The notes below the pieces were generated by a model. That model made no database searches. It was not told the DNA's origin and saw only the letters and a list, made by a program, of their open reading frames with translations. Below, piece after piece: positions 6,135-37,343 of a stretch of DNA of 37,343 bases (positions within the stretch are counted from its first letter, which is position 1; every line of letters begins with the position of its first letter). The position numbers and the translations under genes are program-made. Source of the DNA: Sphaerotilus natans (GTDB lineage: Bacteria > Pseudomonadota > Gammaproteobacteria > Burkholderiales > Burkholderiaceae_C); the NCBI RefSeq assembly GCF_900156335.1, contig NZ_FTMZ01000025.1:1-37343 (forward strand), in the 5' to 3' direction.

Positions 6135-7976
6135 ATGAATTCCCAAGCCCTCTCGTCCTTCCTCTGGTCGGTCGCCGACCTGCTGCGCGGTGACTACAAG
6201 CAGTCCGAATACGGCCGCGTCATCCTGCCCTTCACCATCCTGCGCCGGCTCGACTGCGTGCTGGCGGCGACCAAGCCGGCGGTGCTGGCCGAGCATGCGG
6301 CGCGCACCCAGGCCGGGCTGAACCCCGAGCCCTTCCTGCTGCGCAAGACCGGCGTGGGCTTCTTCAACACCAGCGCGCTGGACCTGCCCACGCTCCTGGG
6401 CGACCAGGACCACATCCGCCAGAACCTCTACGCCTATCTGCAGGACTTCTCGCCGTCGGCGCGCGACATCTTCGAGCGCTTCGACTTCCACGCCCAGGTC
6501 GAGCGGCTGGCCAAGGCGGACCTGCTCTATCTGGTCACCGAGAAGTTCGCCCGCATCGACCTGCACCCCGACACGGTGGACAACGCCACGATGGGCAGCG
6601 TCTTCGAGGAGCTGATCCGCAAGTTCGCCGAAATCTCCAACGAGACCGCCGGCGAGCACTTCACGCCCCGCGAGGTGATCCGGCTGATGGTGAACCTGCT
6701 GTTCATCGAGGACAGCGAGGTGCTGGCGCCCGGCCGCGCGGTGGTGCGCACCGTCTACGACCCGACCGCCGGCACCGGCGGCATGCTGAGCGTGGCGGCC
6801 GAGCACCTGACGGCGCACAACCCGCAGGCGCGCCTGACGATGTTCGGCCAGGAGCTCAACGACGAGTCCTACGCCATCTGCAAGGCCGACATGCTGATCA
6901 AGGGCCAGGACGTGGGCAACATCGTCTGCGGCAACACGCTCAGCGACGACGGCCACGCCGGGCGCCATTTCGACTACATGCTCTCCAACCCGCCCTTCGG
7001 CGTGGAGTGGAAGAAGGTCGAGCGCCAGGTGCGCCAGGAGCATGAGCTCAAAGGCTTCGACGGCCGCTTCGGCCCCGGCCTGCCGCGGGTGAGCGACGGC
7101 TCGATGCTGTTCCTGCTGCACCTGGTCAGCAAGATGCGCCCGGCGGTCGAGGGCGGCAGCCGCTTCGGCATCGTGCTCAATGGCTCGCCGCTGTTCACCG
7201 GCGGCGCCGGCTCGGGCGAGAGCGAGATCCGCCGCTACCTGCTGGAGAACGATCTGCTGGAGGCCATCGTCGGCCTGCCGACCGACATGTTCTACAACAC
7301 CGGCATCGCCACCTATGTGTGGATCGTCTCCAACCGCAAGCCCGAGGACCGGCGCGGCTTCGTGCAGCTGATCGACGCCAGCGGCTTCTGGCAGAAGATG
7401 CGCAAAAGCCTGGGCTCGAAGCGCCGGGAGATGAGCGAGGCGCACATTGCCACCGTGACGCGCCTGTTCGGCGACTTCACCGAGGCCGAGCAGGTGACGG
7501 TGCTCGACGCGCAGGGCCAGCCGGTGGGCGAGCCGCGCCTGGTCACCGGCACCGACACCGCGCCGCTGCCGCCCGAGGGCGGGCGCCTCAAGCGCGTGCC
7601 GATCGCGCGCATCTTCAGGAACGAGGACTTCGGCTACACCACCCTGACGGTCGAGCGGCCCTTGCGCGACGCCGCCGGCGCGGTGGTCCTGGGCCAGAAG
7701 GGCAAGCAGAAGGGCAAGCCCCAGCCCGACAGCGCGCTGCGCGACACCGAGAACGTGCCACTCTGCGAGGACATCGCCACCTACTTCGCCCGCGAGGTGC
7801 TGCCGCACGCGCCGGACGCCTGGATCGACGCCGAGAAAAGCAAGGTCGGCTACGAGATCGCCTTCAACCGCCACTTCTACGTCTTCGAGCCCCCGCGCAG
7901 CCTGCACGCCATCGACGAGGAGCTGAAGGCGGTGTCGGCCAACATCATGCGGATGCTCGGGGAGCTGGCGGAATGA
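6135..7976 (+). CDS. hsdM: type I restriction-modification methyltransferase subunit HsdM
   Basis: A 613-residue N6-adenine DNA methyltransferase, the modification subunit of a type I system. An N-terminal helical HsdM domain (about residues 5-150) precedes the catalytic domain. That domain has the AdoMet-binding motif DPTAGTGG (209-216) and the catalytic motif NPPF (285-288), preceded by [14 protein letters not shown]-like sequence (read as [14 protein letters not shown], about 172). Two HsdM plus one HsdS form the methylase; adding HsdR gives the restriction complex. The stop overlaps the hsdS start as ATGA, so the two are translationally coupled. No strong ribosome site precedes the ATG at 6135. 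All key motifs are present, so activity is expected. Confidence 0.95.
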
Positions 7977-9292
7977 GTTTGCCGAAGTATCCGCACTACA
8001 AGCCCAGCGGCGTCGAATGGCTGGGCGAAGTGCCGGCGCATTGGGATATGTTCCGAATGGGATCGTTATTCCGGGATGTCAATGAGCCAGGGAATGACGA
8101 ACTGCCGGTGCTGAGTGTCTCTATCCACGACGGGGTTTCCGACAAGGAGCTCGATGAGAACGAGATGGACCGGAAGGTGACGCGGAGCGATGATCGATCA
8201 AAATACAAATTGGTCATGCCGGGTGACTTGACATATAACATGATGCGCGCTTGGCAGGGAGGATTTGGAACTGTCGCCGCTCATGGCATGGTCAGCCCGG
8301 CATATGTGGTGGCGCGACCCGTGCGGCGCTTCATGACGTTCTTCGCTGAAATGATTTTGCGGACACCGAATGCCGTCGCGGAAATGAAGCGTCACTCCAG
8401 AGGTGTGACAGACTTCAGGTTGCGGCTCTATTGGGAGGATTTTAAGTGCATTGAAATCGCTCTGCCTCCTGCTGACGAGCAAGCAGAGATTGTGGATTTC
8501 ATAAAACATGAAACTTCCAAGATCGACGCCCTGATCGCCGAGCAGGCGAAGCTCATCGCCCTGCTGGCCGAGAAGCGCCAGGCCACCATCTCGCACGCCG
8601 TCACGCGCGGCCTCGACCCCGCGGCGCCGATGAAGGATTCCGGCGTGGCGTGGCTGGGGGAGGTGCCGGCGCATTGGGAGGTGAAGCGTGTGAAGGACTG
8701 TGGATGCGAAGTCGTGGACTGCAAGAACAGGACGCCAGAACCGCATGTCGAAGGTGACTATTTCGTCGTCAGAACGTCCTGTGTCAAGGATGGCCAGTTT
8801 AATCCGGAGCCAGGGTATTGGACCGATGAGGCGAACTTCATCGAGTGGACGGCGAAAGGCCGGCCTCAGGCTGGTGATGTTCTTTTCACGCGCGAAGCGC
8901 CCGCGGGTGAAGCGTGTCTAGCCCCGGAAGATCTCGATTTCTGTCTTGGGCAACGAATGATGTACATCCGACCGCCAAAAGATTTTTTGCTCAGCAAATT
9001 CTTGCTGTACTCAATTTACGGTGGTCTTGCGCGTGAGAAAATCAGCGAGAAGTCAAAGGGAAGCACCGTTGGCCATTTGAGAGTAGGCGAAGTCGGGGAG
9101 TTGCCACTACTCGTGCCACCTCTGGGCGAACAGCAGGAACTTGTGGATTTCATCGGCGATGAGTTGGAGAAGATTAAAAATCTAGCTGTTGCTTCCAATC
9201 GCGCCATCGCCCTGCTCAAGGAGCGCCGAGCGGCGCTCATCGCGGCGGCGGTGACCGGGCAGATCGATGTGCGGGGCTGGCGGGTGAACTGA
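7973..9292 (+). CDS. hsdS: type I restriction-modification specificity subunit HsdS
   Basis: A 439-residue specificity subunit with two target-recognition domains (about residues 12-180 and 225-405), each ending in a coiled-coil spacer ([20 protein letters not shown] and the matching [14 protein letters not shown]...). Each half opens with the same block, WLGEVPAHW, encoded by near-identical 38-bp stretches at 8009-8046 and 8642-8679. The two recognition domains (about 8047-8500 and 8685-9180) are visibly richer in A/T than the flanking conserved parts, as expected when recognition domains are exchanged between strains. The ATG at 7973 overlaps the hsdM stop. The bipartite target sequence cannot be predicted from sequence alone. 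Confidence 0.95.
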
Positions 9293-9373
9293 GAGAAAAG
9301 TGGCCACGCACGGCGGTTCTGGTAAAAAAGTAGGGCCACTGATGATTTTTCGAGCGAGAAGGCCTGATCTGAC

Positions 9374-10900
9374 ATGAGCAACGTCGGCTATGCGTGGATC
9401 CAGGACACGCTGGGCGCACCGGACTTTCTGGGGGCGCGGCGTGCGCGGCTGACCCCGGGCGTCAACCGCATCGTGCGCGTGGCGCACGGTGGGCTGTCGG
9501 TGCCGGACAAGCTCGCGCCCGGGCCGACGCTGCTGCAGCATGCGCTGTTCGCCCTCAAGCACGAGGGCGTGCATCTGGGGCTGCTGCTGAGCGCGCTGCG
9601 CCGCATGCCCCCCGAGGAGCTGGCTGCACAGGCGCGGGCTGCGCCCAACAGCGTGTACGCGCGCAAGCTGGGGCATCTGTGGGAGCGCCTGCAGGGTCGG
9701 CGTCTGCCCGGGCTGGACGATCTCCGGGTGGCCTCGGCCTATGCGCCCCTGTTCGACCCCGACGACTACTTTGTCGGCGTGGCCCGGCGTGATGCGCGCT
9801 GGCGCATCGAATTCAACGGCCTGGGCGAGCTGGACTTCTGCCCCGTGGTGCGCAGGACGCCCGCCATCCAGGCGCTCGTGGGCCGGGACATCCTGGCGCA
9901 GGCCCAGGCGTTCGCCCAATCAGTGGGCGCCGCCATGCTGGAGCGTGCCCTGAACTGGGCCTACCTGAGCGAGACCGAAGGCTCCTTCGCCATCGAGGGC
10001 GAAGCGCCCAGCCAGGACAAGACCGCTCGGTTCGCCGCCCTGCTGCGACGCGCGCATGAGCAGCGGCCGATCACCGAAGAGATGCTGGTGGAGCTGCAGA
10101 ACGCCACCCTGTCCAATCCGTACGACATGGCGGTGCAGTTCCGCACCGAACAGAACCGGCTGCAAAGGGACGTGCCGGGCGCCGTCGGCGTGACCTACGT
10201 GCCACCGGCACCGGAGCTGGCCGTGGCGCTGATGGAGGGCCTGATGCGTCTGGCCAACCAGCGCCCCGCCGGGCTGGACGCCCTGGTCCATGCGGCCGTG
10301 GTGTCCTTTGCCTTTGTGTTCATCCACCCCTTCATGGACGGCAACGGCCGCCTGTCGCGGTTTCTGATCCATCACTGCCTGGGACAGACGCGCCTGTTGC
10401 CGCCGCAGTTCCTGCTGCCGGTCTCGGTGGCGATGAAGAAGCACGAGGCGGCCTACCTGAGCGCGCTGACCGCCTTCAGCCAGCCTGCGCGCCAGTTGTG
10501 TCAGGTGACCTGGGCGGGCGACGAGCATTACGCCTATGACTGGACCGAGGGCGCCGACCTCTGGTTCCGGACCATGGACCTGACGGACGCGGCCGCCTTC
10601 ACGCTGAACATGGCCGAAGCTGCCCTGGACATCCACATGCGCCAGGAGGTGGAGTTCCTGACGCTGTTCGATCAGGTCAGACGCCACATCGACGCCCGCC
10701 ATGACCTGCGCGGCAGCGATCTGTCCACCCTCATCGTGACGATCCACCAGAACGGCGGCGTGCTGTCCAACAACCGCCGCAAGCGGTTTGCGGAGCGCGT
10801 GCAGCCCCAGGTGCTCGACGCGATCGAGGATGCGGTCAGGCGGTCCATGCAAGGCCTGCCCCTGGTGCCCGACATGACGGCGCCGGACGCGGCCGACTGA
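9374..10900 (+). CDS. Fic-domain AMP-transferase with built-in inhibitory motif, inside the hsd operon
   Basis: A 508-residue Fic protein. The catalytic loop HPFMDGNGRLSR (about 318) is a complete HPFxDGNGR motif, so nucleotidyl transfer (usually AMP) to a hydroxyl side chain of a target protein is expected. About 115 residues earlier, SFAIEGE (about 203) fits the (S/T)xxxE(G/N) inhibitory-helix motif, with its glutamate positioned to block ATP gamma-phosphate. This places it among self-inhibited Fic proteins with an N-terminal inhibitory helix. The C-terminal 100 residues look helical and may include a winged helix (LSTLIVTIHQNGGVLSNNRRKR). It sits between hsdS and hsdR on the same strand, 81 bp after hsdS and 50 bp before hsdR, and so is probably co-transcribed. 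GAGAAGG at 9355-9361 is a weak ribosome site. Target and role in restriction are unknown. Confidence 0.9.
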   Translation: MSNVGYAWIQDTLGAPDFLGARRARLTPGVNRIVRVAHGGLSVPDKLAPGPTLLQHALFALKHEGVHLGLLLSALRRMPPEELAAQARAAPNSVYARKLGHLWERLQGRRLPGLDDLRVASAYAPLFDPDDYFVGVARRDARWRIEFNGLGELDFCPVVRRTPAIQALVGRDILAQAQAFAQSVGAAMLERALNWAYLSETEGSFAIEGEAPSQDKTARFAALLRRAHEQRPITEEMLVELQNATLSNPYDMAVQFRTEQNRLQRDVPGAVGVTYVPPAPELAVALMEGLMRLANQRPAGLDALVHAAVVSFAFVFIHPFMDGNGRLSRFLIHHCLGQTRLLPPQFLLPVSVAMKKHEAAYLSALTAFSQPARQLCQVTWAGDEHYAYDWTEGADLWFRTMDLTDAAAFTLNMAEAALDIHMRQEVEFLTLFDQVRRHIDARHDLRGSDLSTLIVTIHQNGGVLSNNRRKRFAERVQPQVLDAIEDAVRRSMQGLPLVPDMTAPDAAD

Positions 10901-10950
10901 ACACCACACGACACCAGACACCCAACCAGACGACACACCAGGGAGAGACC

Positions 10951-13900
10951 GTGTCATCGCTGCACCGCGAAATCCACTTCGAGGCCGAGATCTGCCAGCA
11001 CCTCGGCGCGCATGGCTGGCTGAACGAGGACGGCGCCGCGCGCGAGTTCGATACCGCGCGCGGGCTCTACCTGCCTGATCTGCGGGCCTGGATCGAGGCC
11101 AGCCAGCCCGAGGCGTGGCAGCGCCTGTGCAAGACCCACGGCGAGCCGGGCGCGCTCGCCGTGCTGGCCGACCGGCTGCGCAAGGGCCTGAACGAGCGCG
11201 GCACGCTGGAGCTGCTGCGCCGCGGCCTGGAGCTGCTGGGCTTGAAGGAGCCGCTGGCGCTGGCGCAGTTCAAGCCCGCGCTGGACCTGAACCCGGCCAC
11301 GCAGGCGCGCTACGCCGCCAACCGCCTGCGCGTGCTGCGCCAGGTGCACCACTCGCCCAACCAGCCCAGGGATGCGCTGGACCTGGTGCTGTGCCTCAAC
11401 GGCCTGCCGGTGGCGACCGCCGAGCTCAAGAGCAACTTCACGCAGAGCGTGCACGACGCGGTCGATCAGTACCGCCATGACCGCCTGCCGCACCCGAAGG
11501 GGGGCGTGCCCGAGCCGGTGCTGGCCTTTCCCGGCGGCGCGCTGGTGCACTTCGCCGTCAGCCAGAGCGAGGTGATGATGAGTACCCGGCTGGCGGGCAC
11601 CTCGACCCGCTTCCTGCCCTTCAACCGCGGCCACGACGGTGCGGCCGGCAACGCGCCCAACCCCGAGGGCTACGCCACCGCCTACCTGTGGGAAGAGGTG
11701 TGGGCGCGCGAGAGCTGGCTGGAGATCCTGCACCGCTACCTCGTCGGCAAGCGCGACGACAAGGGGCAGCTCCAGGCGGTGATCTTTCCGCGCTACCACC
11801 AGCTCGACGCCACGCGCAAGCTCGTGGCCGATGTGCTGGCCAACGGTGCCGGTGAACGCTACCTGATCCAGCACTCGGCCGGCTCGGGCAAGACCAACTC
11901 CATCGCCTGGACGGCCCACTTCCTGGCCGACCTGCACGATGCGCAGAACGCCAAGGTCTTCGACAGCGTGCTGGTGGTCAGCGACCGCAACGTGCTGGAC
12001 GCGCAGCTGCAGGAGGCGCTGTTCGACTTCGCGCGCACCACCGGCGTGGTGGCCCGCATCAGCAACGAGGCCGGCAGCAAGAGCGCGCAGCTCTCGCAGG
12101 CGCTGAAGGACGGCAAGAAGATCATCGTCTGCACCCTCCAGACCTTCCCGTTCGCGCTGCAGGCGGTGCAGGCGCTGGCCGCCACCGAGGGCAAGCGCTT
12201 CGCCGTCATCGCCGACGAGGCGCACAGCTCGCAGACCGGCGAGGCGGCGGCCAAGCTCAAGCAACTGCTGTCGGCCGAGGAGTGGGCCGCTGTTTCCAGG
12301 GATCTGCAGGACGGCGGCGAGCTGGACACCGAGGCGCTGCTGGCCGCGCAGATGGAGGCCAAGGCCAGCGCAGGCGCGGCGGCCAAGGGGCTGACCTACA
12401 TCGCCTTCACCGCCACCCCCAAGGCCAAGACGCTGGAGCTGTTCGGCCGGCCGGGCGAGGACGGGTTGCCGCAGCCCTTCCACGTCTATTCGATGCGCCA
12501 AGCCATCGAGGAGGGCTTCATCCTCGACGTGCTGAAGAACTACACCAGCTACAAGCTGGCCTTCAAGCTCGCGCACGACGGCCAGGAGCTCGGCGAAGAG
12601 CAGGTCGAACGCAGCGCCGCGATGAAGGGGATCATGCAGTGGGTGCGGCTGCACCCCTACAACATCGCGCAGAAGGTGCAGATCGTCGTCGAGCACTACC
12701 GCGAGAACGTGCAGCCGCTGCTGGAGGGCCGCGCCAAGGCCATGGTGGTGGTGGCCAGCCGCAAGGAGGCCGTGCGCTGGCAGAAGGCGGTGCGCGCCTA
12801 CATCGCCCGGCAGGGCTACGAGCTGGGCGTGCTGACCGCCTTCTCCGGCGAGGTCGACGACGCCGAGAGCTACCCGGCGCCGGTCAGCGAGAGCAGCAAG
12901 GACATCAATCCGGCGCTCAAGGGGCGCGACATCCGCGAGGCTTTCAAGGAGCCTCAGAACCACCTGCTGCTGGTGGCCAACAAGTTCCAGACCGGCTTCG
13001 ACCAGCCGCTGCTGTGCGGCATGTACGTGGACAAGATGCTGGGCGGCATCCAGGCGGTGCAGACGCTGTCGCGCCTGAACCGCGCCCACCCCGGCAAGGA
13101 CACCACCTACATCCTCGACTTCGTCAACGACCCGGCCCAGGTGCTGGCGGCCTTCCAGACCTACTACCAGACCGCCGAGCTGGAGGCGACGACCGACCCC
13201 CACCTCGTCTACGACCTGCGCGCCAAGCTCGACGCGGCGGGCCACTACGACGAGTTCGAGGTGGACCGGGTCGCCAAGGTCGACCTCGACCCGAACGGCA
13301 CGCAAAAGCAGCTCGACGGGACAATAGCCCCCGTGGCCGACCGCCTGCTCAAGCGCTACAAGGCCGCCCAGGCCGAGAAGCTGCACGCCGAGCGCCTCGG
13401 TGACGACAAGGCGGCCCAGGCCGCCCGGGACACGCTGGACGCGCTGCTGCTCTTCAAGGGCGACATGGGGGCCTACGTGCGCCTCTACGCCTTCCTGAGC
13501 CAGATCTTCGACTACGGCAACACGGCCATCGAGAAGCGCTTCCTGTTCTTCAAGCGGCTCATCCCGCTGCTGGACTTCGGCCGCGAGCGCGACACGGTCG
13601 ACCTGAGCCGGGTGGTGCTGACCCACCACAACCTGAAGAACCGCGGCGCCCAGCCCCTGGGCCTGACGCCGACCGGCACCTATCCCCTGGCACCCATGGA
13701 GGGCGCGGGCACCGGCGGCGTGCAGGAGAAGCAGAAGGACTATCTGGCCGAGATCATCGAGAAGGTGAACGGCCTGTTCGAAGGCGAGCTTTCGGACACC
13801 GACCAGCTGGTCTACGTGAACGGCGCACTGAAGGGCAAGCTGCTGGAGAACGAACTGTTGGTGCAGCAGGCCGCCAGCAACAGCAAGGAGCAGTTCGCCA

Positions 13901-14106
13901 GCTCGCCCGACCTCGGTCAGGCGCTGCTCGACGCCATCATGGACGCCTTCGACGCGCACCAGAAGATGAGCACCCAGGCGCTGGGCTCCGAGCGCCTGCG
14001 CGGCGGGCTGCTGGACGCGCTGCTCGGGCCGGGGCAGCTCTGGGAGATGCTGCGCGAGCGGGCGGGGGCGGGGGCGGGGCGTGGGTCCTCGCCTTCGCGA
14101 GGATGA
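10951..14106 (+). CDS. hsdR: type I restriction endonuclease subunit HsdR
   Basis: A 1051-residue motor and nuclease subunit. The N-terminal nuclease domain shows the PD-(D/E)xK core ending in ATAELKSNF (about 155). The SF2 translocase has Walker A SAGSGKT (about 308), the DEAH-type box ADEAHSS (about 420) and motif III FTATPK (about 486). Later come GFDQPLLCGMYVDKMLGG and the QTLSRLNRAHPGK motif VI region. A C-terminal helical region follows for complex assembly. The start is a GTG at 10951, chosen because GGGAGAGA at 10941-10948 is a good ribosome site. The extreme C-terminus, RGSSPSRG, is encoded by the repeat arm at 14080-14108, which also supplies the stop codon. The protein otherwise looks complete and functional. 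Confidence 0.95.
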   Translation: MSSLHREIHFEAEICQHLGAHGWLNEDGAAREFDTARGLYLPDLRAWIEASQPEAWQRLCKTHGEPGALAVLADRLRKGLNERGTLELLRRGLELLGLKEPLALAQFKPALDLNPATQARYAANRLRVLRQVHHSPNQPRDALDLVLCLNGLPVATAELKSNFTQSVHDAVDQYRHDRLPHPKGGVPEPVLAFPGGALVHFAVSQSEVMMSTRLAGTSTRFLPFNRGHDGAAGNAPNPEGYATAYLWEEVWARESWLEILHRYLVGKRDDKGQLQAVIFPRYHQLDATRKLVADVLANGAGERYLIQHSAGSGKTNSIAWTAHFLADLHDAQNAKVFDSVLVVSDRNVLDAQLQEALFDFARTTGVVARISNEAGSKSAQLSQALKDGKKIIVCTLQTFPFALQAVQALAATEGKRFAVIADEAHSSQTGEAAAKLKQLLSAEEWAAVSRDLQDGGELDTEALLAAQMEAKASAGAAAKGLTYIAFTATPKAKTLELFGRPGEDGLPQPFHVYSMRQAIEEGFILDVLKNYTSYKLAFKLAHDGQELGEEQVERSAAMKGIMQWVRLHPYNIAQKVQIVVEHYRENVQPLLEGRAKAMVVVASRKEAVRWQKAVRAYIARQGYELGVLTAFSGEVDDAESYPAPVSESSKDINPALKGRDIREAFKEPQNHLLLVANKFQTGFDQPLLCGMYVDKMLGGIQAVQTLSRLNRAHPGKDTTYILDFVNDPAQVLAAFQTYYQTAELEATTDPHLVYDLRAKLDAAGHYDEFEVDRVAKVDLDPNGTQKQLDGTIAPVADRLLKRYKAAQAEKLHAERLGDDKAAQAARDTLDALLLFKGDMGAYVRLYAFLSQIFDYGNTAIEKRFLFFKRLIPLLDFGRERDTVDLSRVVLTHHNLKNRGAQPLGLTPTGTYPLAPMEGAGTGGVQEKQKDYLAEIIEKVNGLFEGELSDTDQLVYVNGALKGKLLENELLVQQAASNSKEQFASSPDLGQALLDAIMDAFDAHQKMSTQALGSERLRGGLLDALLGPGQLWEMLRERAGAGAGRGSSPSRG

Positions 14107-35374: not shown

Positions 35375-36147
35375 TGAACGCCGTCACCATGAATCTGGCC
35401 GTCGAGCTCGACGCGGTGCGCAAGTCCTTCGGCCGCACCGAGATCATCCGGGGCGCCAGCCTGCAGGTGCGCGCCGGCGAGCGGGTGGCCATCATCGGCC
35501 CCAACGGTGCCGGCAAGTCGACGCTGTTCAACCTGATCAGCGGGCGGCTGGCGCCCTCGGCCGGGCAGATCCGCCTGTTCGGCGAGCGCATCGACGGCCG
35601 CGCGCCGCACGAGATCAACCGCCGCGGCCTGGCGCGCAGCTTCCAGGTCAGCAATCTGTTCCCGAAGCTGAGCGTGTTCGAGAACCTGCGCTGCGCGATG
35701 CTCTGGACCGAGGGCCACCGCTACGCCTTCTGGAAGTTCCTCGCCGATCTGGACGAGACCAACGCCCGCGCCGAGGCGCTGCTCGAGCGCCTGCATCTGG
35801 ACCGCCGCCGCGACGTGCTGGCGATGAACCTGACCTACGCCGAGCAGCGCGCGCTCGAGATCGGCCTGACCATCGCCGGCGGCGCGCGCGTGATCCTGCT
35901 CGACGAGCCCACCGCCGGCATGAGCCGCAGCGAGACCACGCGCTTCATCGGCCTGATCCGCGAGGTCACCGAAGGCCGCACGCTGCTGACCGTCGAGCAC
36001 GACATGGGCGTGGTCTTCGGCCTGGCCGACCGCATCGCGGTGCTGGTCTACGGCGAGGTCATCGCCTTCGACACGCCCGAGCGCGTGCGCGCCGACCCGC
36101 GGGTGCAGGAAGCCTACCTCGGCTCCGTCCTCGCCCAGGGCCACTGA
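35374..36147 (+). CDS. livG: LIV-type ABC transporter ATPase (LivG) with altered signature motif
   Basis: A 257-residue ATPase. Walker A GPNGAGKST (about 42) and Walker B VILLDEPTAGMS are intact, as is the H-loop TVEHDMG. The signature, usually LSYGQ or LSGGQ in this family, reads LTYAE (in MNLTYAEQRALEIG, about 149), so the conserved glycine that contacts ATP in the partner subunit is alanine. The BCA_ABC_TP_C-type tail ADPRVQEAYLG is typical of LivG. The ATG overlaps the livM stop. It works as a heterodimer with LivF, and the altered signature faces the altered Walker A of LivF. Confidence 0.93.
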   Translation: MNAVTMNLAVELDAVRKSFGRTEIIRGASLQVRAGERVAIIGPNGAGKSTLFNLISGRLAPSAGQIRLFGERIDGRAPHEINRRGLARSFQVSNLFPKLSVFENLRCAMLWTEGHRYAFWKFLADLDETNARAEALLERLHLDRRRDVLAMNLTYAEQRALEIGLTIAGGARVILLDEPTAGMSRSETTRFIGLIREVTEGRTLLTVEHDMGVVFGLADRIAVLVYGEVIAFDTPERVRADPRVQEAYLGSVLAQGH

Positions 36148-36222: not shown

Positions 36223-36924
36223 ATGCTGGAAATCGACAACCTCCACGCCTACTACGGCAAGAGCCACGTCCTTCACGGCGTGACGATGCGCATCGCGCCC
36301 GGCGAGATCGTCGCGCTGCTCGGGCGCAACGGCTCGGGGCGCTCCACCACCGTCAAGGCCGTCATGGGCCTGGTCGAGGGCAGCGGCTCGGTGCGCTGGG
36401 GCGGCCGCGAGCTGCTCGGGCTGAAGGCGCACCAGATCGCGCACCACGGCCTGGGCTACGTGCCCGAGAGCCGCGACATCTTCCCCCGGCTCACCGTGCA
36501 CCAGAACCTGCTGCTCGGCCAGAAGAAGGCCGGCGGCACGCCCGGCGCGCGCTGGCAGCTCGACGACATGTACGCGATGTTCCCGCGGCTGAAGGAGCGC
36601 CAGCACACCGAGGCCGGCGTGCTCTCCGGCGGCGAGCAGCAGATGCTGACGCTGTGCCGCACGCTGATGGGCGACCCCGACCTGATCATGATCGACGAGC
36701 CCACCGAGGGCCTGGCGCCCAAGATCGTCGAGCTGGTGGCCGACTACCTGCGCGAGCTGCAGCGCCGCGGCATCGCCGTGCTGCTGGTCGAGCAGAAGCT
36801 CACCATCGCGCTGGAAGTCTCGCAGCGCTGCCTGCTGATGGGCCACGGCTGCATCGTCTTCGAGGGCACGCCGGCGGAGCTGCGCGCCAATGCGGGGGTG
36901 CGGCGGGAGTGGCTGGAGGTGTGA
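36223..36924 (+). CDS. livF: LIV-type ABC transporter ATPase (LivF) with Lys-to-Arg Walker A
   Basis: A 233-residue ATPase, typical LivF length. The Walker A reads GRNGSGRST (about 33-41): the phosphate-binding lysine of GxxGxGK(S/T) is arginine, encoded by CGC. The signature LSGGEQQ (about 128), Walker B LIMIDEPTEGLAP and the H-loop position (replaced by Q in LLVEQKL, usual for LivF) follow the family. YGKSHVLHGVTM and GLGYVPESRDIFPRLTV are characteristic. It closes the J-H-M-G-F operon. The start ATG at 36223 lacks a good ribosome site; the short gap from livG contains a palindromic repeat. Confidence 0.92.
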   Translation: MLEIDNLHAYYGKSHVLHGVTMRIAPGEIVALLGRNGSGRSTTVKAVMGLVEGSGSVRWGGRELLGLKAHQIAHHGLGYVPESRDIFPRLTVHQNLLLGQKKAGGTPGARWQLDDMYAMFPRLKERQHTEAGVLSGGEQQMLTLCRTLMGDPDLIMIDEPTEGLAPKIVELVADYLRELQRRGIAVLLVEQKLTIALEVSQRCLLMGHGCIVFEGTPAELRANAGVRREWLEV

Positions 36925-37002
36925 GGTGGTCGCTGCGGTTCGCAGCTCACGGTTTTCATCAATCGATTACTGGGGCGCGCCGTTTCTGGATTGCAGAAAT
37001 TC

Positions 37003-37125
37003 ATGGTGGCCGTGGTCGAGCGAAAGCTGGCTGAGTCCAGGTTCGTGCAGCCGACCAGTCTGATGATGCAAAGAGTGGCCAAGGCCAGTCGAGATTATGG
37101 TGAAGCATTCAAATCCATCTGGTAG
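37003..37125 (+). CDS. small ORF or gene remnant of unknown function
   Basis: A 40-codon frame starting at an ATG and ending TAG, in the same phase as livF and open back to the livF stop (about 26 more codons without a better start). Codon use is mixed, less G/C-biased at the third position than the neighbours. I recognise no family. There is no ribosome site. The continued open frame and native-looking composition suggest either the 3' end of a gene cut by rearrangement or chance. It lies in the A/T-richer transition between the LIV operon and the CRISPR array. Confidence 0.25.
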   Translation: MVAVVERKLAESRFVQPTSLMMQRVAKASRDYGEAFKSIW

Positions 37126-37145
37126 CTGAGCGAACAACCAGCAAA

Positions 37146-37172
37146 AAGAAGCCCCGCACTGCGGGGCTTCTT
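37146..37172 (-). terminator. strong intrinsic terminator at the CRISPR array end
   Basis: A perfect 12-bp stem, AAGAAGCCCCGC (37146-37157) with GCGGGGCTTCTT (37161-37172), has a three-base loop. On the minus strand it is followed by a five-base T-run (the A-run at 37143-37147), giving a textbook terminator for transcripts coming from the right, that is from the array. On the + strand the tail is GCTTTT, so it may also work for livF. Confidence 0.8.
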
Positions 37173-37182
37173 GCTTTTGTGA

Positions 37183-37343
37183 CTGCAATCTCAGCCGCAC
37201 TCCGGACCGACGGCTGACAAGGCTGTGGTGTTCACGTTGTCTTAACCGGCTGCAATCTCAGCCGCACTCCGGACACTTGCTGCCGTCCTTCTTGCTCTTT
37301 CTGCTGGGTCTTAACCGGCTGCAATCTCAGCCGCACTCCAGAC
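37183..37343 (-). CRISPR. CRISPR array, leader-distal end, truncated by the window edge
   Basis: Three repeat copies are visible: a terminal partial copy (25 bases conserved, 37183-37207), a full 36-bp copy (37239-37274) and another (37308-37343, one mismatch) ending on the last base of the window. Spacers are 37208-37238 (31 bp) and 37275-37307 (33 bp) and are unlike each other. Read on the minus strand the repeat has 10 bases, a 6-bp stem (CGGCTG and CAGCCG) around the loop AGATTG, and then exactly eight bases, GTTAAGAC. That is the layout of Cas6-type processed repeats, whose cleavage leaves an 8-base 5' handle. The degenerate copy is missing its 3' end in this orientation, as expected for the last repeat. 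Type I or III is therefore likelier than type II, but no cas gene is in view. Confidence 0.8.

Follow-up and report, generated by a model that had tools for sequence, protein, structure and literature searches.

Three copies of a short repeat stand at the right edge of the window, by which we mean the whole analysed stretch of 37,343 nt from Sphaerotilus natans, and they raise the question of whether they form a CRISPR array and, if so, which system that array serves. Our analysis reveals that a real CRISPR array lies here beside a rare type III-D2-like operon with CorA-like and SLATT proteins.

A CRISPR array at the window edge

Array 1 consists of three 36-nt repeats separated by mutually unrelated spacers of 31 and 33 nt. 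The preliminary description had proposed this layout, and our coordinates and alignment agree with it. The visible part contains the following features.

37146–37172, no strand assigned: hairpin formed by a perfect 13-bp inverted repeat, at which the leftward transcript of the array probably terminates
37172–37207, minus: degenerate, leader-distal repeat of array 1, diverged over its last 11 nt
37208–37238, minus: 31-nt spacer, without convincing target
37239–37274, minus: reference repeat of array 1 in the repeat comparison, GTCCGGAGTGCGGCTGAGATTGCAGCCGGTTAAGAC on the minus strand
37275–37307, minus: 33-nt spacer, without convincing target
37308–37343, minus: repeat of array 1 with 1 mismatch in the repeat comparison, the final bases ahead of the N gap

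With the copy at 37239–37274 as the reference for mismatch counts, the copy at 37308–37343 differs at 1 position and the leftmost copy at 7 of 36, all within the left 11 positions, whereas its 25 nt at 37183–37207 are identical. This bears out the earlier claim that the terminal copy, read on the minus strand, has a degenerate 3' end. Among exact direct repeats lying 40–100 nt apart in the window, the longest measures 32 nt, as compared with 10–14 nt in 12 order-2 Markov shuffles, which rules out a chance repeat. In addition, 13 exact 23-mers recur 40–100 nt apart in the whole window, every one of them inside array 1.

Identical spacers or coding continuity across the units had been named beforehand as marks of a tandem repeat outside CRISPR. 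The spacers show no evident likeness in global alignment. Stops within the array close five of the six reading frames. The remaining one, on the plus strand, runs uninterrupted across the three copies from a stop at ~37130 up to the gap (~70 codons), which we attribute to chance in GC-rich DNA. This single open frame and the presence of only three visible copies would suit another kind of short repeat, for example a repetitive coding stretch. However, the spacers are unrelated, the end copy is degenerate, the start-to-start spacings of 67 and 69 nt mean that the copies are not all in one frame, and cas genes including a Cas6 gene lie across the gap; we regard such a repeat as barely conceivable here. 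Near-identical repeats of a few dozen nucleotides, unrelated spacers of similar length, a leader-like stretch at one end (its junction with the first repeat falls within N) and cas genes nearby are all found, and the repeats at the window edge are confirmed as a real CRISPR array.

The array is probably read leftward, toward a strong hairpin. The diverged part of the end copy lies 3' on the minus strand, as expected leader-distally, and the hairpin at 37,146–37,172 comes after it; the cas genes and a leader-like stretch lie to the right of the array on the same (minus) strand. On this strand the repeat contains the stem CGGCTG/CAGCCG followed by exactly 8 nt, GTTAAGAC, in line with the perfect 6-bp stem and eight bases noted before. 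The minus-strand repeat folds with z –0.97 (26 of 200 shuffles equally good) and the plus-strand repeat with z –2.53 (3 of 200), so folding does not fix the orientation of array 1. As for the strong terminator proposed beyond the array, the 13-bp perfect hairpin is present and, by reading, T-rich bases lie beyond it on both strands, but a formal scan for terminators gave it a score for the plus strand and none for the minus strand.

The window covers bases 1–37,343 of a contig (C25) that runs to 63,898 bp, and its edge is not the contig end; contig coordinates to the right continue the window numbering. Immediately right of the third repeat lies a stretch of 753 N (37344–38096), and further units of array 1 are not visible because these bases are N. 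A gap beginning exactly at a repeat end fits assembly failure within a repeat array, and we infer that more units lie within it. The preliminary description was correct in calling the array cut off, although the cause is the run of N and not a contig end. Extension to the right, which it had recommended, recovered a leader-like stretch and a cas operon but no additional unit beyond the gap: the minus strand at contig positions 36,000–55,999 contains no further array 1 repeat at up to 10 mismatches, and the 25-nt part of the repeat occurs nowhere else in the genome at up to 3 mismatches.

The leader-like stretch lies between the gap and the operon and holds two marks.

38269–38279, minus: perfect boxA, GCTCTTTAACA, past the triple-Cas7 stop codon and before the gap
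38257–38274: leader motif

The boxA runs into TTAACAATTCAAGCACTT and is the sole perfect copy in the window, in contig positions 36,000–55,999 and in two regions of other contigs (C22 1–20000 and C7 67000–86000). A passage of PMC7862264 that cites Stringer et al. reports boxA elements ahead of natural arrays. The leader motif, TTAAnAAT(0-2)CAAGCACTT, was drawn from the array 1 leader and the genome's own I-F leader; it has 6 matches across 120 genomes, as compared with none for a reversed control. Two of the six matches are the source leaders, so independent support amounts to two of four: two matches lie upstream of I-F arrays in same-genus genomes and two have no array within 1.5 kb. The genome's two compared array leaders are weakly alike overall (58 of 1000 shuffles as good), and both hold TCAAGCACTTGC. 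The expectation that a leader and probably cas genes would lie to the right is thus supported by the boxA stretch and by a minus-strand operon with a Cas6 gene.

The operon beyond the gap

Six genes follow on one strand, overlapping or ~30 nt apart at most.

Contig 38294–41833, minus: triple Cas7, 1179 aa (TIGR03986, RAMPs, PDB 9wxh chain D)
Contig 41857–43707, minus: Cas7-Cas5, 616 aa (RAMPs, PDB 9wxh chain C)
Contig 43704–45209, minus: Cas10, 501 aa, GGDE (PADLOC, PDB 9wxh chain B)
Contig 45230–46927, minus: CorA-like protein, 565 aa (PADLOC CorA)
Contig 46924–47769, minus: Cas6, 281 aa (PF10040)
Contig 47800–48345, minus: SLATT protein, 181 aa (SLATT_4)

Gene starts were picked by eye, and those of CorA, Cas6 and a Csb2-like gene farther right are guesses; ribosome-binding-like sequence is seen by eye ahead of the starts of triple Cas7, Cas7-Cas5, Cas10 and SLATT. 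Genes were assigned with PADLOC, Pfam and NCBIfam, and curated cut-offs are exceeded for TIGR03986, RAMPs (two proteins), CRISPR_Cas6, SLATT_4 and Csb2. The triple Cas7 protein scores 234.3 bits against TIGR03986 (cut-off 161.35) and 111.7 against RAMPs (cut-off 22.1), Cas7-Cas5 scores 28.4 against RAMPs (cut-off 22.1), Cas6 43.7 bits against PF10040 (cut-off 25) and the SLATT protein 127.5 bits against SLATT_4 (cut-off 55). The CorA-like protein is below the Pfam CorA cut-off (22.4 vs 27) and is assigned by PADLOC (CorA, E 1.3e-61, run on a longer 690-aa frame). Cas10, below the cut-off of the Pfam palm model (21.4 vs 27), is assigned by PADLOC and PDB 9wxh.

A search of all PDB chain sequences gave a chain of 9wxh as the best match of each of the three effector proteins: chain D for triple Cas7 (E 2e-122), chain C for Cas7-Cas5 (E 1.4e-44) and chain B for Cas10 (E 3.9e-44). 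No other PDB entry matches Cas7-Cas5 (E up to 0.01) or Cas10 (E up to 0.1). Cas10 contains no HD dipeptide within its first 150 residues, and GGDE replaces GGDD. No Cas1 is found in the locus, the genome's only PF01867 matches at E 0.001 being on contigs C7 and C22. Among the seven locus proteins, all otherwise assigned, no SAM-AMP-degrading enzyme (NrN, DEDD or SAM-AMP lyase) is recognised. Relatives of the CorA-like protein on Vitreoscilla and Azospirillum plasmids (L022 and L023, two of nine plasmid matches opened) have no annotated cas genes nearby, and these are possible non-CRISPR relatives of the effector.

Subtype and nearest relatives

With its triple Cas7, Cas10 and Cas6, the locus fits variant III-D2 by its protein families. 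One protein carries three fused Cas7 domains, Cas10 is retained, and so is Cas6, well above its family cut-off. The text of PMC8730458 that bears on this variant describes it as keeping Cas10 and Cas6 and having a triple-fused Cas7 protein, and PMC12669027 is a further source for this variant. The solved complex of PDB 9wxh, 9wxi and 9wxj shares with our locus the triple Cas7, the Cas7-Cas5 and a GGDE Cas10 (9wxh chains D, C and B), and Cas6 is present here. No publication naming 9wxh was found among the papers searched, and the comparison is of its chains, not of its locus. Unlike that complex, the locus in Sphaerotilus has CorA-like and SLATT proteins, a lone Csb2-like gene and two unrelated arrays, and the slicing Asp of the 9wxh Cas7-Cas5 is His.

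The nearest annotated relative found is the III-D locus on Tistrella mobilis plasmid pTM1 (NC_017957.2), with 32% identity in Cas10 (with GGDE), 35% in Cas7-Cas5 and 32% in the tandem Cas7. It likewise has a TIGR03986 protein, Cas6, a CorA-like protein and arrays with ~31-nt spacers, but its Cas7-2x and insertion Cas7 are separate genes, and it has RT-Cas1 and Cas2. Its CorA-like protein, of 1115 aa, is weakly similar to the one described here. That protein (L013:16359–19703) lies between two arrays; CorA profiles match its residues 723–993, the full-length sequence finds no Pfam family at E 0.1, and it may be a CorA effector whose sensor part is new.

The III-Dv system of Synechocystis (PDB 8s9t) shares fused Cas7 domains, the insertion Cas7 and Cas10; as set out in the relevant part of PMC11026444, its Cas7-2x and Cas7-insertion are separate, it has a Csx19 subunit, and its Cas10 carries GGDD. 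Our locus does not belong there: the Cas7 parts are fused, and no Csx19 turned up among the seven proteins. The Cas7 domains are also weakly similar to the single-protein effectors Cas7-11e of III-E (105.5 bits) and Cas7-11i of III-I (50.1 bits), far below the model cut-offs of 700 and 800 bits. Unlike these, the locus keeps a recognisable Cas10 and a separate Cas5. The presence of Cas10 and Cas7-Cas5 sets it apart from III-E, and a Cas10 found by sequence sets it apart from III-I, in which Cas10 lacks detectable sequence similarity.

Few relatives were found. The triple Cas7 was found in its own genome alone, both in the order (1 of 399 genomes) and in the phylum (1 of 398), with at most two candidates scored per listed genome and misses therefore possible; under the same scoring, the Cas7-Cas5 model matched 1 of 397 genomes and its controls 0 of 14. 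IMG/VR contains no triple-Cas7 relative, GTDB contigs yield one distant Poribacteria locus, and two plasmid records cover 53% and 7% of the query. The Cas10 motif is GGDE in 9wxh and Tistrella, and GGDD in the Poribacteria locus. The locus stands between the multi-protein and the single-protein type III effectors, a rare intermediate, and it brings its arrays and its likely membrane effectors together.

Array usage, proposed mechanism and genomic setting

A second array and one further gene lie to the right of the operon.

Contig 48449–49720, minus: array 2, 18 repeats and 17 spacers, with a 37-nt repeat that differs from that of array 1
Contig 49868–51130, minus: Csb2-like protein, 420 aa (type I-G Cas5-Cas6; Csb2 83.8 vs 45 bits)

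The array 2 repeat is GGCGATATTCCCGGCGAGAGCTGGGTTGGATTGAAAC, changed in some copies, and its spacers are 34–39 nt. The repeat ends in GATTGAAAC, and the final ATTGAAAC is what we take to be the usual type III handle. No convincing likeness is seen between the array 1 repeat and that of array 2, of Tistrella or of III-Dv; the lowest shuffle fractions in seven repeat comparisons belong to the array 2 repeat against that of Tistrella (0.0035), whose direction is ambiguous, and against that of III-Dv (0.044). The lone Csb2-like gene adjoins the leader end of array 2, and no other I-G gene is recognised beside it. The locus contains two possible repeat-cutting enzymes, Cas6 and the Csb2-like protein, together with two arrays. 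In this regard, the Cas6-type repeat proposed earlier has gained a Cas6 gene nearby, while the Csb2-like protein is a candidate cutter as well.

We consider it likely that the visible repeats form the leader-distal part of an array serving the type III-D2-like system just right of them, although the N bases leave no unit to be seen from the third repeat to the operon. Array 2 is likewise close to the operon, and with its ATTGAAAC end it may supply the effector in place of array 1 or alongside it. Array 1 could then be a relic, an old or orphan array kept downstream: array 2 is long, adjoins the SLATT and Cas6 genes and has the repeat end described above, the locus is without a Cas1 match, and the third repeat of array 1 has a mismatch. 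Against this, the array 1 repeats are near-identical, the boxA-bearing leader-like stretch lies directly downstream of the operon, and the hairpin ends the array. Furthermore, the array 1 spacers fall within the range of the Tistrella relative (29–34 nt, mean 31, n = 12) and suit it better than most of array 2 does, a weak point with n = 2. We hold the relic to be unlikely. Still less probable, and by a clear step, is that array 1 belongs to a type I-G system of which Csb2 remains at the far end, the III-D2 effector borrowing the array. Of the type I-G set (Csb1, Csb2, Csx17 and Cas3), a Csb2-like protein above its cut-off is found, and no Csx17 was detected in the genome by a search whose control matched nowhere. 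However, this gene is ~12 kb from array 1, and array 2 is the nearer candidate; because Csb2 adjoins it, array 2 may be what remains of an I-G unit.

The preferred reading, in which array 1 serves the III-D2-like system, builds on what is directly seen: repeats and spacers, the gap, gene content and order, the boxA stretch, and three effector proteins matching one solved complex. Transcription of array 1 would run leftward from the leader near 38,280 and stop at the hairpin (37,146–37,172), with boxA keeping the polymerase processive along the long untranslated array. Cas6 would cut below the CGGCTG/CAGCCG stem to leave the 8-nt GTTAAGAC handle, and the crRNA would be threaded along triple Cas7 and Cas7-Cas5, Cas10 forming the base. 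A matching foreign transcript, once bound, would switch on the Cas10 palm (GGDE) to make a nucleotide messenger. This messenger would trigger the CorA-like protein, and perhaps SLATT too, and halt the infected cell. We infer putative Cas6 processing, RNA-guided recognition, Cas10 messenger synthesis and membrane effectors from protein families, and the system probably senses RNA and acts through cell-membrane proteins.

Whether the complex also cuts RNA can be approached through the slicing Asp, which we scored by its position ahead of the conserved proline of an IPxxS-like loop; the loop alignments are uncertain. In III-Dv, D26, D33 and D246 are needed for cutting, according to the part of PMC11026444 that deals with them. 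An Asp is missing from –20 to –12 in both the second Cas7 and the Cas7 of Cas7-Cas5, the latter with His at –14; in the first Cas7, –13/–14 is without Asp and the only one is at –19. By comparison, 9wxh and the Poribacteria locus have an Asp in –20 to –12 of both Cas7-Cas5 and the second Cas7, and Tistrella in neither; the first Cas7 has it at –20 only in 9wxh, and at –19 and –15 in Tistrella. Because two of the three Cas7 sites are without Asp in the expected loop, the complex may signal an alarm to CorA and not be an RNA cutter. It is a tentative idea, and on balance doubtful, that the III-D complex has lost slicing and become an RNA-triggered alarm in which a messenger from the GGDE Cas10 gates the CorA-like and SLATT proteins together; loss of slicing may serve as a lead. 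The CorA messenger in III-D is described as unclear in a section of PMC12669027. A portion of PMC11229360 counts 53 CorA-bearing loci in its dataset and considers that activators may differ between CorA families. With CorA beside a GGDE Cas10 and no SAM-AMP-degrading enzyme among the seven proteins, the CorA messenger question is directly testable in this locus.

The array 1 repeat occurs in none of 148 other related genomes (149 including its own), its exact cores match nothing in GTDB contigs or IMG/VR, and Rfam has no match at 36900–37343; the earlier remark that the repeat was not recognised agrees with this. Matching the spacers to phages and plasmids, as had been suggested, gave no convincing protospacer for either of the two (phages and plasmids by BLAST, exact cores in IMG/VR). 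The 33-nt spacer has no phage match and four weak plasmid matches, the best over 28 of 33 nt at 89% (E 0.3). The 31-nt spacer has no plasmid match and hits 18 Streptomyces phage records, all with the same 18-nt match (E 0.8) among the 15 listed. Exact 20- and 21-nt spacer cores have no match in IMG/VR, and 4 of the 17 array 2 spacers, those searched, have none in phages at E 0.1. To our knowledge, most spacers have no known target.

Two other regions of the genome carry Cas1 matches. Contig C7 (67000–86000, L010) contains a CRISPR locus with a Cas1 match and a 28-nt repeat, GTGAACTGCCGGGTAGGCAGCTCAGAAA, at a 60-nt period, which we take from its repeat to be type I-F; this different 28-mer excludes it as an array of the same type as array 1, and its leader motif recurs at arrays that carry this 28-mer in two genomes of the genus. 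On contig C22 (1–20000, L009), Cas1 pieces in shifting frames lie at ~8900–10300, with a plasmid replication-like gene (by eye) and a WYL/WCX regulator. This Cas1 was rejected as an adaptation partner: its pieces are in several frames, the first 20 kb of the contig hold no array, and nothing links it to the locus.

The site is flanked by an ABC transporter-like gene (window 36223–36924) and a FadJ-like gene (from ~51270), both read by eye. The distance from flank to flank is ~10.7 kb in one relative (G009), with other genes between, and ~200 nt in another family of the order (G091); in two further relatives (G001 and G006) the contigs break near the site with IS-like or RT-like pieces, by eye. 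The comparison suggests that the site between window position 36924 and ~51270 is an insertion hotspot.

A second defence cluster, resembling type I restriction-modification, was recognised by eye from translations at window positions 6135–14106.

6135–7976: HsdM-like gene
Inside the frame ending at 9292: HsdS-like gene
9374–10900: Fic-like gene inside the hsd cluster
10951–14106: HsdR-like gene
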